A stretch of DNA of 64,000 bases, taken from Synechococcus sp. CBW1107. GTDB lineage: Bacteria > Cyanobacteriota > Cyanobacteriia > PCC-6307 > Cyanobiaceae. Position numbers and translations under genes: made by a program. The notes beneath the pieces were generated by a model, which searched no databases, was not told where the DNA came from, and was given only the letters and a program-made list of their open reading frames with translations. The stretch spans positions 1,674,001 to 1,738,000 of the forward strand of contig NZ_CP064908.1 in the NCBI RefSeq assembly GCF_015841355.1, written 5' to 3'. This document shows, piece after piece, positions 12,568 through 57,048 of this stretch; the stretch's first letter is position 1; each line of letters opens with the position of its first letter.

Positions 12568-13008
12568 ATGCGAGTGGTGCCGATCCGCCTGGGGCCTGGC
12601 ACTGATCTGCGCCTTGGCCTTGAGCAGCTTCTGGTCGACCGGGACGAGCAGGCGGGATGCGTGATCAGCGGCATCGGCAGCCTGTCGACGGCGTGCCTGC
12701 GACTGGCCGGTGGCCTTGAGCCCACCCGGATGAGTGGAGAGTTCGAGATCCTCTCGCTGGCAGGAACGCTTGCGCTGAATGGAGCCCACCTGCATCTCAG
12801 CATCGCCGATGGACAGGGCCTGGTGATCGGTGGTCACCTCTGCGTCGGCTCACTCGTGCGCACCACCGCCGAGCTGGTGGTGGGTGTGCTGCCGGACTGG
12901 TCGTTTCGCCGCGAGATCGATCCGGCCACCGGATTCCGGGAGCTGCAGATCAGGCAGCGGCAAGGGATGGAACCAGTTGACCTGCCCAGCCTCCCGTCGT
13001 CCCCTTGA
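12568..13008 (+). CDS. PPC/DUF296-domain protein
   Basis: A 146-residue single PPC (DUF296) domain. It opens MRVVPIRLGPGTDLR, continues with SGIGSLSTACLRLAGG and ends its core with GAHLHLSIADGQGLVIGGHL, the pattern of this trimeric fold. In plants the domain is fused to AT-hooks; bacterial free-standing members have no settled role, although DNA or small-ligand binding has been proposed. Start ATG 12568 was picked because homologous sequence begins there. A second PPC domain, fused to glutaredoxin, is encoded at 53431-54042 and starts with nearly the same pattern, so the two are paralogues. Confidence 0.8.
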   Translation: MRVVPIRLGPGTDLRLGLEQLLVDRDEQAGCVISGIGSLSTACLRLAGGLEPTRMSGEFEILSLAGTLALNGAHLHLSIADGQGLVIGGHLCVGSLVRTTAELVVGVLPDWSFRREIDPATGFRELQIRQRQGMEPVDLPSLPSSP

Positions 13009-50571: not shown

Positions 50572-51357
50572 TTATCGCGGCTGGGCCTGGGGCGCGAGCC
50601 GCAGCGATTGGGTTGCCACCGACGGGCGGAACCGGCGCATCCCAGGCAGCTGGAACCAGGCGCTGGTGGGGAACTCGTGGTGTTCCCAGTGATAGCCGAA
50701 GTGGAAGCAGGCGAGCAGGGAGAGCCATACCGGCAGCTCCAGGCTGCGGGCCTGGTGAGGAGTGCCCTCGGTGTCCGCATGGCGGTGGGGCAGGTACGTC
50801 CCGAAGACGAACAACTGCAGGGAACTGATCAGCAGGGGCAGGGTGCAGATCAGCAGCACCGATACCGGGGCCATGGCGCCGGAGGGTGCGGCCAGCAGGG
50901 TGAGCAGGGCCCACCCCCCCAGCAGGCGCAGCATCTGGCCGGCGGAGAGATAGCTGGCCATGAAGTGGCTGTACCAGCGCAGCACCCCGCCGCCCCGGGC
51001 CGGCCGGTGGTCGGGATCGCGGGGGGTTCCCGGGGCCTGATGGTGGCGCAGGTGGTTGACGCGGCAGGCGCCATAGGGAAGCCCGGCATAGAGCCCGAGA
51101 GCCCACTGCCCCAGCCGGTGATTCAGCCGCGGCTGGCCCGGCAGGAGCAGGCCGTGCATGGCGTCGTGGCCGACGATGAACAGGCCGGTGTGCAGCACCG
51201 AGCGGAGGCCGACGGCGAGCAGCAGCAACGGCAAGGGGAAATGGCCCGGATCGGCCGGGAGCAGAAGCACCAGGCTGAGGATCCAGGCCAGCAGGATGGC
51301 GGCGGCCAGCAGCAGGCCCTTGCCGGTGGCAGGGGGCGTGGCCGTGGCGAGGCTCAA
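50572..51357 (-). CDS. crtW: Beta-carotene ketolase CrtW
   Basis: A 261-residue integral membrane fatty-acid-desaturase-fold ketolase. Histidine clusters: HDAMH, HLRHH and HWEHH (plus HRHAD), which bind the di-iron centre, between four hydrophobic segments. It adds 4-keto groups to beta-carotene, giving echinenone and canthaxanthin, the carotenoids that OCP binds. Its ATG overlaps the OCP stop (ATGA), so pigment synthesis and apoprotein are translationally linked. No frameshift or missing His. Confidence 0.94.
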   Translation of the reverse strand: MSLATATPPATGKGLLLAAAILLAWILSLVLLLPADPGHFPLPLLLLAVGLRSVLHTGLFIVGHDAMHGLLLPGQPRLNHRLGQWALGLYAGLPYGACRVNHLRHHQAPGTPRDPDHRPARGGGVLRWYSHFMASYLSAGQMLRLLGGWALLTLLAAPSGAMAPVSVLLICTLPLLISSLQLFVFGTYLPHRHADTEGTPHQARSLELPVWLSLLACFHFGYHWEHHEFPTSAWFQLPGMRRFRPSVATQSLRLAPQAQPR

Positions 51358-52307
51358 CGGGCGAACTTGAGCAGTTCGGCGGGTGAGGCCAGCAGGTCGA
51401 TGGCCACGAAGTAGATCTTGCCCTCGGGGTTGAGCAGGAAGCGCCAGGCCACGTTCATGCCCACACCGGCTCCGAACCAGGGGGTCTGGACCTTGCCGGT
51501 CACCTTGATCTGGGTGAAGCCGTCGTCGGTGGGTTCGGCAACGCCGGATTCGGGCAGCAGCTTCAGGTTCTGGCAGTCCTCGCGGAAGAAGCGCAGGATG
51601 GCCTCCTTGCCCACGATCGGTTTCTGGAAGGGAGGTTGCAGAGCCCCATCCGGGAGGAACAGCTCGATCAGGTTGTCGAAATCGTTGGCGTTGAGCTGAT
51701 CCATGTAGGCGCTCACCGTGGCGTTGTCGATTCCGGCGATCGACACCTTCTGACGCTGGGACTCAGGGGTGGGAGCGACCACGGGCTCCATGACGCGCTG
51801 GCCCTCGCCCTTGGCGGGGTCATAGCCCATGTCGACGACGAAGTTGCGCAGCAATGTGATCTGCTGGCCCTGCTCGACACTCTTGAGGGAGCTGAGCACG
51901 GAGGCGGCGTTGGCGGAGAGCTGGTAGCCCTGGGGGATCGGGGCCACGATGCCGGCGGCCATCCATTCGCCGAGCTGATACCAGAAGCCGAGCTTGATGT
52001 TCACCGACCAGCCGGAGTACGTGCGGCAGATCTCGGTGTCGGCGCTGTTGGCCAGATCACACATGACCTGGCTCTGCTGGGCGAAGCTCATGGTCTTGAT
52101 CTGGTTGAGCACGCCTTCGGCGAACTGCATACGGGCCGCGCCGGGGGCGGCGATGGTGATGGTCTTGCCCATCTCGAGGTAGGCGTACCAGATCAGTGCA
52201 AGCTGGTCCTCGGCGCTGAGCAGCTTGTAGCGGGCCGTGATGGCGGGAACGACGTCCGCCGACAGGGTGTCGGGGAAGATCTGGGTGGCCTTCTCGAGCG
52301 TGAACAT
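51354..52307 (-). CDS. ocp: Orange carotenoid protein (OCP)
   Basis: A 317-residue OCP of the canonical type: N-terminal helical carotenoid domain (LIWYAYLEMGKTITIAAPGAA), linker, and NTF2-like C-terminal domain (NANDFDNLIELF to FVAIDLLASPAELL). Residues matching the family's Arg155 (in LLRNFVVDMG), Tyr201 (in SAYMDQL) and Trp288 (in NVAWRFLLN) are conserved, so light activation and FRP control are expected. First gene of OCP - crtW - frp. ATG 52307 gives the usual start MFTLEKA. Confidence 0.97.
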   Translation of the reverse strand: MFTLEKATQIFPDTLSADVVPAITARYKLLSAEDQLALIWYAYLEMGKTITIAAPGAARMQFAEGVLNQIKTMSFAQQSQVMCDLANSADTEICRTYSGWSVNIKLGFWYQLGEWMAAGIVAPIPQGYQLSANAASVLSSLKSVEQGQQITLLRNFVVDMGYDPAKGEGQRVMEPVVAPTPESQRQKVSIAGIDNATVSAYMDQLNANDFDNLIELFLPDGALQPPFQKPIVGKEAILRFFREDCQNLKLLPESGVAEPTDDGFTQIKVTGKVQTPWFGAGVGMNVAWRFLLNPEGKIYFVAIDLLASPAELLKFAR

Positions 52308-52464
52308 ATGCGGTTGGTCCCTTTTGTTAAGGAGATTTACAGACTCTAGCCGATGGGCCATGAAGCTGGTAAGTAATCCTGCCTAGTGCCTTCGGCGTTG
52401 GTGAGCCCAGGCCGACCGGAAAGGGCCGACCCTTCAAGTTTCGGATCTACGCCAACCTGGAGAG

Positions 52465-52887
52465 ATGCTCCGCTTCGTTCTTAACGTCCTCTGGTTCGTG
52501 CTCGGGGGCTTCGTGATGGGCCTGGGCTGGTGGCTGGCCGGGCTGGTGGCCGCCATCACGATCGTGGGTCTTCCCTGGGCGCGGGCCTGTTTCGTGATCG
52601 GCAACTTCTCCTTCTGGCCGTTCGGGAAGGAGGCCATCAGCCGCCGCGAGCTCACCGGCCGCAACGATTTCGGCACCGGCCCCCTGGGGCTGGTGGGCAA
52701 CGTGATCTGGTTCCTGCTGGCGGGCTGGTGGCTGGCGATCGGCCACCTCAGCTCGGCCCTGGCCTGCTTCGTGACGATCATCGGCATCCCCTTCGGGATT
52801 CAGCACGTCAAGCTGGCGCTGATTGCCCTGGCGCCGATCGGCCTGCAGGTGGTTCCCACGGGAACCCGGCTCCGGGCTCCGGAGTGA
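52465..52887 (+). CDS. YccF-family inner-membrane protein (DUF307)
   Basis: A 140-residue membrane protein with two repeated hairpin-like units: LNVLWFVLGGFVMGLGWW ... WARACFVIGNFSFWPFGKE and NVIWFLLAGWWLAIGH ... IGIPFGIQHVKLA, the YccF pattern. Function unknown in all bacteria. It is divergent from the OCP operon and converges on, and overlaps by 80 bases, the end of the unknown gene at 52808. Confidence 0.85.
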   Translation: MLRFVLNVLWFVLGGFVMGLGWWLAGLVAAITIVGLPWARACFVIGNFSFWPFGKEAISRRELTGRNDFGTGPLGLVGNVIWFLLAGWWLAIGHLSSALACFVTIIGIPFGIQHVKLALIALAPIGLQVVPTGTRLRAPE

Positions 52888-53434
52888 AGCGGCAGCGCAG
52901 CAGCGCCAGGGCCTCATCGGGCAGCCCCAGGACACGGTCCAGCCAGGGCTCGCCGCTGGGCTGGATCGTGGCCACCCCCACCAGCAGGGCCAGGCCATCG
53001 CTGTCGAGGGGCTGGCCGCGGCGCCGGTGCCGCTGGCTGCTGATGTCGCCCGTGACCAACTCCGTGGTCACCAGCAGTGGCGGTGCGCTGTAGAGCGAGC
53101 CCAAACGAAAGAGAAAGCGCGCCCTGAAGTTCAGAGCCAGGGAGCCGCTGGCCGGATCGAGGACTCCCTCCAGTTGCTCGGCTTCGATGCCGATGCTCAG
53201 CCCCGGCGGCAGGGGCACCCCCAGCACGCGGGTGCTGCGCCAGTCGAGCGGCGGAATGCGCAGTCCGTCGGGCTGGAATCTCAGCGGCCGGCTGCCGTCC
53301 CCGGCCGGTTGCCCCAGCCGGCCGCTGCCGCCACCTCCCCTGGCGTCGTAGCGGAAACGCGGGTAGCCGGAGATGGCCAGACCGCAGTCCGCCAGCGTGC
53401 TGAGCTCAAGCGTGGCGGCTGCCGGGGGGCTCAT
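52808..53434 (-). CDS. Hypothetical protein
   Basis: A 208-residue protein that I do not recognise. No signal peptide or membrane segment; it is beta-rich in the middle with a Gly-rich loop (ARGGGGSGRLGQ, about 31-42) and ends Pro/Ala-rich. Its start overlaps the stop of the PPC-glutaredoxin gene by four bases. The last 80 bases overlap the convergent YccF gene, so part of the C-terminus may be dispensable. Conserved operon position suggests a link to the fusion protein upstream. Confidence 0.6.
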   Translation of the reverse strand: MSPPAAATLELSTLADCGLAISGYPRFRYDARGGGGSGRLGQPAGDGSRPLRFQPDGLRIPPLDWRSTRVLGVPLPPGLSIGIEAEQLEGVLDPASGSLALNFRARFLFRLGSLYSAPPLLVTTELVTGDISSQRHRRRGQPLDSDGLALLVGVATIQPSGEPWLDRVLGLPDEALALLRCRFTPEPGAGFPWEPPAGRSAPGQSAPA

Positions 53435-54042
53435 CCCTGGCGCAGGTCCTCGAGCTCTCCCCGGCCCTGGCGCTCGGCCAGTTCGCTGTAGCCGCCGATC
53501 AGTTCCCCATCGACGAAGACCTGGGGGACGGGACCCTCGGCGCTGGGCTCGATCAGCCGGTGGGGAATGCCGAGGGTGCGCAGCATGCGCAGCGCACGTC
53601 TGGAGAACGGGCAGCCTGAGCGCACGGCGATCGTCACCCGGGGCGCGCCGGTGCCGGACTCGTCGGCCCCCGGCCTGGAGGCCTGCGCCGTTGCCTGGGC
53701 CGGCGTCTGCCCCGGAGTGTCCAGCAGGCCCACCAGCAGGTCGGCGCCCTTGAGCACCCGCGAGCCCGGCTCGAGGTGCCCGCCCCAGACCCGGCAGTCG
53801 CCATCGGCGAGGCTCAGGTGCAGGTGCACGCCCTGGGGGGAGAGGGTGCCTTGCAGGGTGATGATCTCCAGCTCACCGCGCAGCACGGTGGGGGCGATCC
53901 TGCCGGGGCACTGGAAGGCGGCCTGGGCGAGGTTGCCCACCACGCCGAGCACGAAACCGGAGGCGTTCTGCTCCACGGCCAACTGCTCGAGCGCCTGGCG
54001 CAGGTCACTGCCGGGCTCGAGGTGGAGCGGCACGGAACGCAT
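53431..54042 (-). CDS. PPC/DUF296 domain fused to a monothiol glutaredoxin-like domain
   Basis: A 203-residue two-domain protein. Residues 1-110 are a PPC domain (MRSVPLHLEPGSDLRQALEQL, VVGNLAQAAFQC, GVHLHLSLADGDCRVWGGHL). After a Pro/Ala/Gln-rich linker (about 112-132) comes a glutaredoxin domain with CPFS active site (in VAVRSGCPFSRRAL region), cis-Pro VPQVFVDGELIGG and GGYSEL. CPFS is a monothiol-type site. Fusion of these two domains is not one I know. It follows the SDR gene by 29 bases. Paralogue of the free PPC protein at 12568. Confidence 0.85.
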   Translation of the reverse strand: MRSVPLHLEPGSDLRQALEQLAVEQNASGFVLGVVGNLAQAAFQCPGRIAPTVLRGELEIITLQGTLSPQGVHLHLSLADGDCRVWGGHLEPGSRVLKGADLLVGLLDTPGQTPAQATAQASRPGADESGTGAPRVTIAVRSGCPFSRRALRMLRTLGIPHRLIEPSAEGPVPQVFVDGELIGGYSELAERQGRGELEDLRQG

Positions 54043-55726: not shown

Positions 55727-56953
55727 TCAGGTGCTGAGGGCCTGGAGAGCAGGGATGGCATCCAGCTCCGGGATGGTCGCCATGCTCTCGGCTGAGAACA
55801 TGCGCCGGCCCTCCAGCTGCCAGTGCTCGTGCTGCTCCAGCAGTACCGCGCCCACCAGGCGGGTGATCGACGCGTCGTTGGGGAAGATGCCGACGACCCT
55901 GGTGCGGCGTTTGATTTCCTCGTTGACCCGCTCGAGCAGGTTGGTGCTCCAGATCTTGCGCCAGTGGTCCTTGGGGAAGTGGCGGAACGCCAGCACGTCC
56001 TCCTTGGCCTCATGCATCAGCGCAGCGGCCTTGGGGAAGCGCTCCGCCAGCGAGGCCGCCAGATCATCCCAGCGGGACTCGATCTCTTCCGCGCTCTCCT
56101 GAGCGAACACGCTGCGCAGGGCGGCGGTGACCATGCCCTGGTGAGCCTTGGGAACGCACTGCAGCAGGTTGCGGGCAAAGTGGACCCGGCAGCGCTGCCA
56201 GACGCTGCCCTGCAGCTGCCGTCGGATGGCCTTGGTGAGTCCGCTGTGGGCGTCAGAGATCACCAGCTTGACGCCAGCGAGGCCTCGCTCCTTGAGGTGG
56301 GCGATGAACTCCGCCCAGAAGGGCTCGCTCTCGCTGTCGCCCACCTTGAGGCCCAGCAACTCCCGGCGCCCGTCCTCGTTCACCCCCATGGCGACGACGA
56401 CGGCGCGGGAGCAGACCTGCTGAGCCTTGCCCAGCCGCCCCTTGAGGTAGGTGGCATCGAGGTAGACGTAGGCGTAGCCGCTGCTCTCCAGCGGCCGGCC
56501 CAGGAACGCCTGCACCTGCTGGTCGATCTCCTGACAGATGCGACTCACCTGCGACTTGGAGATGCCGCTCTGGGAGCCGAGCGCCGCCACCAGGGCATCG
56601 ACCTTGCGGGTCGAGACCCCACCGATGTAAGCCTCCATGATCACCGCGTACAGGGCCTGATCAACCCGGCGGCGGGGTTCGAGGATCGAGGGGAGGAAGC
56701 TGCCCGCGCGCAGTTTCGGGATCTGCAGTGCCAGATCCCCCACCTGGGTGGTCAGGGTGCGAGGCCGGTAGCCGTTGCGGTGGCCGAGCCGCTCCTCGGT
56801 GCGCTCGTGCCAGTCCGCACCGAGGAAGGCAGCGAGCTCCAGCTCGATCAGCTGCTGCAGGCCGTGGCGTGCCAGTTCAGGGATCAGCTCCCCGGCACTG
56901 CTGCCATCGAGTAGCGAGGCCAGCTCAGGTACGGCAGCATGGGTCTTGGGCAT
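55727..56953 (-). CDS. IS256-family (mutator-type) transposase
   Basis: A 408-residue DDE transposase: YLDATYLKGR (first Asp), VISDAHSGLTKAI (second Asp), CRVHFARNLL and TNLLERVNEEIKRRTRVVGIFPN (the Glu). These are the signatures of the IS256/Mutator group, which moves by copy-out with 8-9 bp duplications. No frameshift, so probably active. ATG 56953 (MPKTHAAV) was taken as start; an earlier codon at 56980 is possible. Confidence 0.93.
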   Translation of the reverse strand: MPKTHAAVPELASLLDGSSAGELIPELARHGLQQLIELELAAFLGADWHERTEERLGHRNGYRPRTLTTQVGDLALQIPKLRAGSFLPSILEPRRRVDQALYAVIMEAYIGGVSTRKVDALVAALGSQSGISKSQVSRICQEIDQQVQAFLGRPLESSGYAYVYLDATYLKGRLGKAQQVCSRAVVVAMGVNEDGRRELLGLKVGDSESEPFWAEFIAHLKERGLAGVKLVISDAHSGLTKAIRRQLQGSVWQRCRVHFARNLLQCVPKAHQGMVTAALRSVFAQESAEEIESRWDDLAASLAERFPKAAALMHEAKEDVLAFRHFPKDHWRKIWSTNLLERVNEEIKRRTRVVGIFPNDASITRLVGAVLLEQHEHWQLEGRRMFSAESMATIPELDAIPALQALST

Positions 56954-57048
56954 GGTCTGTCTGGTTGAGGTGGTTCTCAAACCAGGGAAACGGGCCTGCC
57001 CACCCCTTGCAACGTCAGCCGTGGAGCCGATCGCCTGAGGTGCGGACG

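Follow-up and report, generated by a model that had tools for sequence, protein, structure and literature searches.

What does a glutaredoxin do when it shares a polypeptide chain with a PCC (PPC/DUF296) domain? The question is raised by a gene in a 64,000-nt stretch of Synechococcus sp. CBW1107, contig NZ_CP064908.1, the whole of which is referred to here as the window and within which all coordinates are counted. Prokaryotic PCC domains are widespread, their structures have been solved several times, and the fold usually forms trimers. The open-licence literature yielded neither a paper assigning a function to a prokaryotic PCC domain nor a functional study of bacterial PCC-glutaredoxin proteins. 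A glutaredoxin fusion that comes with two new cysteines in the same ancestor gives a handle on PCC function, in that it points to both the place that is touched and the signal.

The domain pairing itself has been published before. DUF296-GRX is listed by Alves et al. 2009 (PMC2679010) as a bacteria-specific architecture with a CPYC-class glutaredoxin and was taken there as a sign of DNA-binding regulation, which answers the statement in the original prediction that no such combination was known to it from described systems. Compared by described architecture, the window protein is of the same kind, a bacterial protein in which DUF296 and a Cys-Pro glutaredoxin share one chain. Unlike the description given here, the account in the available text of Alves et al. 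includes no cysteine pair, glutaredoxin helix deletion or neighbour gene, and the words Synechococcus and Prochlorococcus are absent from the paper's main text. A 2022 picocyanobacterial survey (PMC9361551) names two glutaredoxins, a monothiol one and glutaredoxin 3, as having a global distribution. What is new here is a pair of cysteines in the PCC domain (C45 and C83), a shortened glutaredoxin that also lacks a lysine, and a neighbouring gene that we name YPF; we regard the case as sound, testable and modestly surprising.

The fusion gene and its domains

The fusion gene lies at 53431..54042 on the minus strand and encodes 203 amino acids plus a stop, with an ATG start and no internal stops. 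The PCC/DUF296 domain comprises residues 3-108 (53719..54036, minus strand) by Pfam match and alignment, with PF03479 matching residues 3-105 at E 4.2e-19 and 69.4 bits (cut-off 25). The glutaredoxin domain follows at residues 133-203 (53434..53646, minus strand) and carries the active-site motif C144-P-F-S147 (53602..53613, minus strand); PF00462 matches residues 136-165 at E 6.7e-7 and 29.9 bits (cut-off 22.9), although this best stretch covers only profile positions 1-30 of 60. Between the two domains is a flexible linker, residues 109-132 (53647..53718, minus strand), that is rich in Pro, Ala and Gln, is partly predicted to be disordered, and is under weak constraint.

An AlphaFold2 monomer model of the window protein has a mean pLDDT of 89.1 and a pTM of 0.57, with two confident domains on either side of linker residues 115-129, which fall below pLDDT 50. 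With the pTM only at this value, the relative placing of the PCC and glutaredoxin domains is not fixed by the model. The PCC part superimposes on 2p6y with Z 20.2 and rmsd 1.1 over 107 residues, and the stand-alone bacterial PCC/PPC proteins 2p6y, 2hx0, 2nmu, 2dt4 and 2h6l all share its fold (Z 13.9 to 20.2) but, unlike the fusion, have no glutaredoxin domain. By analogy, the PCC domain of the fusion is presumably a trimer. The glutaredoxin part matches the GSH-bound cGrx2 structure 4tr1 with Z 10.1 and rmsd 2.2 over 71 residues. The original prediction of a PPC/DUF296 domain joined to a glutaredoxin in one protein through a Pro/Ala/Gln-rich linker is thus borne out by the intact reading frame, by two Pfam matches above their cut-offs, by both modelled folds and by the linker's composition and partial disorder; its proposed modelling check of the glutaredoxin fold comes out positive in the match to 4tr1, but the domain is incomplete, as the helix that would join strands 2 and 3 is deleted from the sequence and missing from the model.

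Distribution, loss and selection

A profile built from 23 fusions was run on 388 genomes of the class, including 64 from the window's own family, which we take to be the Cyanobiaceae in GTDB naming. Both domains are matched in a single frame in 64/64 of the same-family genomes, and no fusion occurs among the matches listed for the 324 class genomes outside the family, which comprise the PCC part alone or cross stops past the PCC domain. In a scan of genome contigs, which also reached beyond the cyanobacterial class, the best 80 of 337 relatives are all picocyanobacterial by title or content; the named loci come mostly from Synechococcus, Cyanobium, Vulcanococcus and Prochlorococcus, and the nearest named relative among the matches listed is Synechococcus sp. 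WH 5701. Picocyanobacterial genomes are small, and still many of them, Prochlorococcus included, retain the fusion gene. One contig, CALPNT020000053.1 (locus L081), is titled as a Bifidobacterium breve metagenome-assembled genome and contains a typical picocyanobacterial fusion together with YPF, and its title looks wrong.

The fusion is absent from part of the family. In a wider sample 331/400 family genomes give some match to the query, a number of them only by way of a glutaredoxin or a paralogous PCC gene. A profile search of 27 family genomes picked for a weak or missing match, some of them incomplete assemblies, found no intact full-length fusion (0/27); two of these (G193 and G246) have a partial fusion that is cut off where the contig ends. 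In genus g9, each of the seven members examined has separate glutaredoxins only, and the existence of such genomes indicates that the fusion gene can be lost and is not essential to the family. A decaying copy is seen in another of the 27, at G360:C2:29429-29938 (locus L242), in a partial genome of genus g79 that is 67% complete, with three stops and with C83, H89 and the active-site Ser replaced.

Five pairs from the window's genus give dN/dS values of 0.14-0.26 for the PCC domain and 0.13-0.23 for the glutaredoxin domain, compared with 0.54-0.94 for the linker, where it could be computed in 4/5 pairs. Both domains are under purifying selection while the linker drifts, the pattern of two conserved units joined by a loose tether. 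A frameshift artefact, named beforehand as the refuting finding for the linker in relatives, is ruled out, as is an assembly artefact, by the presence of the fusion throughout the 64 family genomes together with the low dN/dS of both domains. In a tree of 31 fusions and 43 others, the PCC domains of the fusions form one clade with bootstrap 100; judged from the sequences, the fusion arose once.

Phage origin was considered and rejected. Ten phage records match the query, none over more than 52% of it and each by the PCC domain alone or the glutaredoxin alone, and the viral contig matches listed (80 of at least 210 confirmed) all start at residue 109 or later, with none over the PCC part.

Cysteines and histidines of the PCC domain

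Two residues set the fused PCC domains apart. C45 (codon 53908..53910, minus strand) and C83 (codon 53794..53796, minus strand) are Cys in 123/123 distinct fusion sequences, as is the active-site C144, and exactly these three cysteines are present in the aligned region of 80/123. In stand-alone PCC domains position 45 is occupied by F (23), L (17), W (1) or Y (1), with Cys in 0/42, and position 83 is Gly in 42/42. This control has 43 rows from 42 genes, of which 35 are from other cyanobacterial families and 7 are same-family paralogues, two of these from the window's own genome, and it was drawn largely from the highest-scoring profile matches, that is, from the most fusion-like stand-alone PCC domains. 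Twelve further stand-alone rows, inspected by eye, are also without Cys at 45 and 83, and there is no Cys at the aligned places in 2hx0 or 2p6y. The window contains its own internal control for the pair, a second and stand-alone PCC gene at 12568-13008 on the plus strand, which has Gly at the place of C83 and no Cys at that of C45.

Three histidines, H73, H75 and H89, are invariant, being present in 123/123 fusions and in 43/43 rows of the stand-alone set, and the cyanobacterial stand-alone proteins thus resemble the fusion in these residues and differ from it in lacking C45 and C83. The latter takes the place of a glycine in the turn before a GGH motif, near one of the histidines in sequence; strand order alone would allow a wide separation of C45 and C83 in a single chain. 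Acetolactate decarboxylase is among the structural matches of the PCC part (6j92, Z 9.7, rmsd 2.7, 98 residues). We compared the three histidines with what we take to be the metal-ligand pattern of that enzyme, and by this analogy they may bind metal.

Because the fusion arose once, the PCC cysteines and the fusion amount to one historical coincidence and not to a repeated co-gain. The fixation of the pair and the fusion in what appears to be a single ancestor is suggestive, yet it is one event. The surroundings of stand-alone PCC genes give no common neighbour in 20 neighbourhoods from other cyanobacterial families, with genes called by a crude longest-ORF rule, and the largest cluster other than PCC is present at 3/20 loci.

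The glutaredoxin domain

The active-site motifs of the 123 fusions are CPFS (38), CPWS (35), CPWC (22), CPYS (21), CPYC (3), CPYT (2), CTWS (1) and CAWS (1), so that Pro directly follows the active Cys in 121/123. Position 147 is S in 96, C in 25 and T in 2, with six changes on the tree, an interchange of Ser and Cys that is expected if one cysteine suffices. The description of the window protein as a monothiol glutaredoxin is apt with regard to its single active-site Cys in CPFS, but it does not extend to membership in the CGFS Fe-S class, and 25/123 relatives have a second Cys.

About 12 residues forming the helix between strands 2 and 3 are deleted in 47/123 fusions, the window protein among them, and are kept in 76/123. 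The deletion maps as one change on the full-alignment tree and as two on a tree without the deleted columns. We equate the deleted helix with helix 3 of the glutathione-scaffold site, to which that helix is counted in glutaredoxin work such as PMC5382279. The residue three before the active Cys, where the activator lysine would be placed, is L in 76 fusions, R in 26, A in 15, K in 1 and another residue in 5, and is R141 in the window protein. In yeast ScGrx7 this lysine is described as the activator of both the catalytic cysteine and glutathione (PMC5382279). The fused glutaredoxin may carry out its glutathione chemistry slowly or with a bias towards oxidation; with the lysine replaced and, in the window clade, the helix lost, the balance may lie with oxidation by GSSG rather than with reduction by GSH.

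By its active site the fused glutaredoxin is class-I-like in sequence. Active class I glutaredoxins have a Cys-Pro motif and a short active-site loop (PMC7138851), and the window protein has CPFS and no loop insertion, while the class II CGFS traits (the CGFS motif itself, an elongated loop and a WP motif) are all absent from its sequence and alignment. For the window protein the Grx4 model is outscored by both TIGR02180 and TIGR02181, and among six other chosen members TIGR02181 (class I GRX_bact) is best in five and Grx4 in one, with all scores below the curated cut-offs. Pairwise BLAST against the proteins of the same genome is less clear-cut: the fused domain scores higher with the CPFC than with the CGFS protein in only 19/123 cases, with median bits of 42.4 and 47.4 respectively, and in a glutaredoxin tree the fused domains fall in neither the class I nor the class II clade.

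A proposed glutathione switch

The best reading of these features, which we hold tentatively and at somewhat less than even chances, is that the tethered monothiol-type glutaredoxin acts on the cysteines of its own PCC domain. A free linker, one active Cys and two extra invariant cysteines in the partner make up a sensor-like layout, and it is on this layout that we propose glutathione exchange between C144 and C45/C83. A PCC trimer with a putative three-histidine metal site would carry its own tethered glutaredoxin, whose C144 would take up glutathione from GSSG or from a glutathionylated protein and hand it to C45/C83 of the same trimer, leaving these glutathionylated or as a disulfide; the reverse reaction would reduce them. 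Through these steps, each of which we infer, the glutathione redox state would switch whatever the PCC domain binds. Of the redox control of a DNA- or ligand-binding domain that was originally suggested, ligand binding stays the best general idea, with the two extra PCC cysteines in its favour, and it is the DNA-binding half that is poorly supported.

Natural proteins are known in which a fused glutaredoxin acts on the domain or complex it is joined to, namely the Haemophilus influenzae peroxiredoxin-Grx hybrid and a ribonucleotide reductase subunit with a fused Grx; these partners are known enzymes, whereas PCC has no known reaction. The engineered Grx-roGFP2 sensors (PMC10897161) resemble the proposed switch in that a glutaredoxin is tethered to a two-cysteine protein and works by a monothiol mechanism, and they differ in being artificial and in having GFP as the partner. 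If the proposed switch is true, the fusion is nature's own form of a sensor in wide laboratory use.

Neighbouring genes and alternative roles

The downstream neighbour, YPF, is a 208-aa family-restricted predicted beta-barrel protein encoded at 52808..53434 on the minus strand, and its start codon overlaps the fusion stop (ATGA). YPF adjoins the fusion in 58/80 named loci, being downstream in 36, upstream on the same strand in 15 and divergent in 7, with gaps, measured between tblastn matches, of -9 to 54 bp, 13 to 57 bp and 91 to 783 bp respectively. The other 22/80 named loci show no YPF, although one of these (L125) has less than 1 kb of contig left downstream. YPF was found in 7/145 class genomes, and all seven are among the 14 listed from the family of the fusion. 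No convincing Pfam family was found in 16 members (best E 0.092, in one member), and Foldseek gave no match at E 0.001. The prediction is of a small beta-barrel with pLDDT 90, and its weak matches, up to Z 10.9, include outer-membrane barrels, YceI-like proteins and PsbO; we read the predicted fold only as 'beta-barrel'.

The frequency of this neighbour raises the possibility that the glutaredoxin arm acts on a client outside the fusion, with YPF as the leading candidate and the PCC trimer acting as scaffold and docking platform, an arrangement that we consider possible but fairly unlikely. Adjacency in three arrangements argues for it, as do two cysteines of YPF: across 16 aligned rows the first never varies and the second is kept in 13/16. 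Among hand-picked family genomes YPF is present in 13/17 with the fusion versus 5/15 without an intact fusion, and plant PPC domains are described as serving protein-protein contacts (PMC4209074). However, the 7/14 listed family genomes without YPF all have the fusion, five genomes (G031, G099, G026, G079 and G240, several of them assemblies in many contigs) have YPF with no intact fusion found, and the two PCC cysteines are left unexplained. The proposal that the fusion is a natural counterpart of Grx-roGFP2, in which a lysine-less and, in the window clade, minimal and helix-less glutaredoxin would act mainly as an oxidant and set the cysteine pair of a trimeric, metal-binding PCC domain and, by way of it, YPF, strikes us as unlikely; if it is true, such a sensor is found in abundant picocyanobacteria of sea and lake. 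The PCC domain might instead be a metalloenzyme with a catalytic three-histidine site of the acetolactate decarboxylase type, for which the glutaredoxin would present or remove glutathione on the substrate. The invariance of H73, H75 and H89 in fused and stand-alone domains alike, the structural match to 6j92 and the title of PDB entry 2h6l as a metal-containing protein are all consistent with such an enzyme, but no pathway gene is conserved around the fusion, and we judge this role improbable.

DNA-binding and Fe-S roles, both raised in the original prediction, are poorly supported. A redox-controlled DNA-binding regulator, as also proposed by Alves et al. 2009, would accord with the naming of several PCC entries as 'putative DNA-binding protein' and with the regulation of transcription by plant AHL proteins that have a PPC domain (PMC4209074). 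In the AHL proteins as described, however, it is the AT-hook that contacts DNA, whereas the part played by PPC lies in localisation and in contacts with other proteins (PMC4209074, PMC9946822). No AT-hook RGR core is present in the 203 residues of the window protein, profile searches matched no known DNA-binding domain family, and the PCC fold is also found in acetolactate decarboxylase, with three invariant histidines kept in the fusion; a regulator of this kind is thus very unlikely. An Fe-S cluster protein of the CGFS type is the least credible of the roles weighed here, and we give it hardly any weight. The single Cys together with Ser at the active site speaks for it, as do the 104/123 fused domains that score no better with the CPFC than with the CGFS protein (ties being counted here) and the one of six chosen members that is best with the Grx4 model. 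It is opposed by the Pro after the active Cys, which is nearly invariant, by the absence of the class II loop and WP motif, by the five of six members best with the class I model and by the tree, which puts the fused domains in neither class. Glutathione exchange between the tethered glutaredoxin and C45/C83 is the reading that we retain.

Upstream of the fusion in the window is a gene of the NAD-dependent epimerase family (PF01370; 54072..54959, minus strand), 29 bp from the fusion start. Epimerase, YccF and orange carotenoid protein (OCP) neighbours occur in 11, 12 and 12 of the 80 loci respectively, mainly in the window's genus and its next relatives. The OCP gene in the window lies at 50572-52361 on the minus strand, with Pfam Carot_N and NTF2 matches, and the open reading frame behind it is presumably desaturase-like. 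Close to the fusion locus, at 55727-56980 on the minus strand, is an open reading frame that we take to be a transposase of the IS256 (mutator) type. In two Prochlorococcus-like loci (L107:6603-6860 and L121:6624-6881) a small tryptophan-rich, membrane-like protein, seen by eye, is encoded next after the fusion; its start overlaps the fusion stop, the L107 protein contains KPWWCQPW, and the gene that then follows in both loci reads by eye like a GNAT acetyltransferase.
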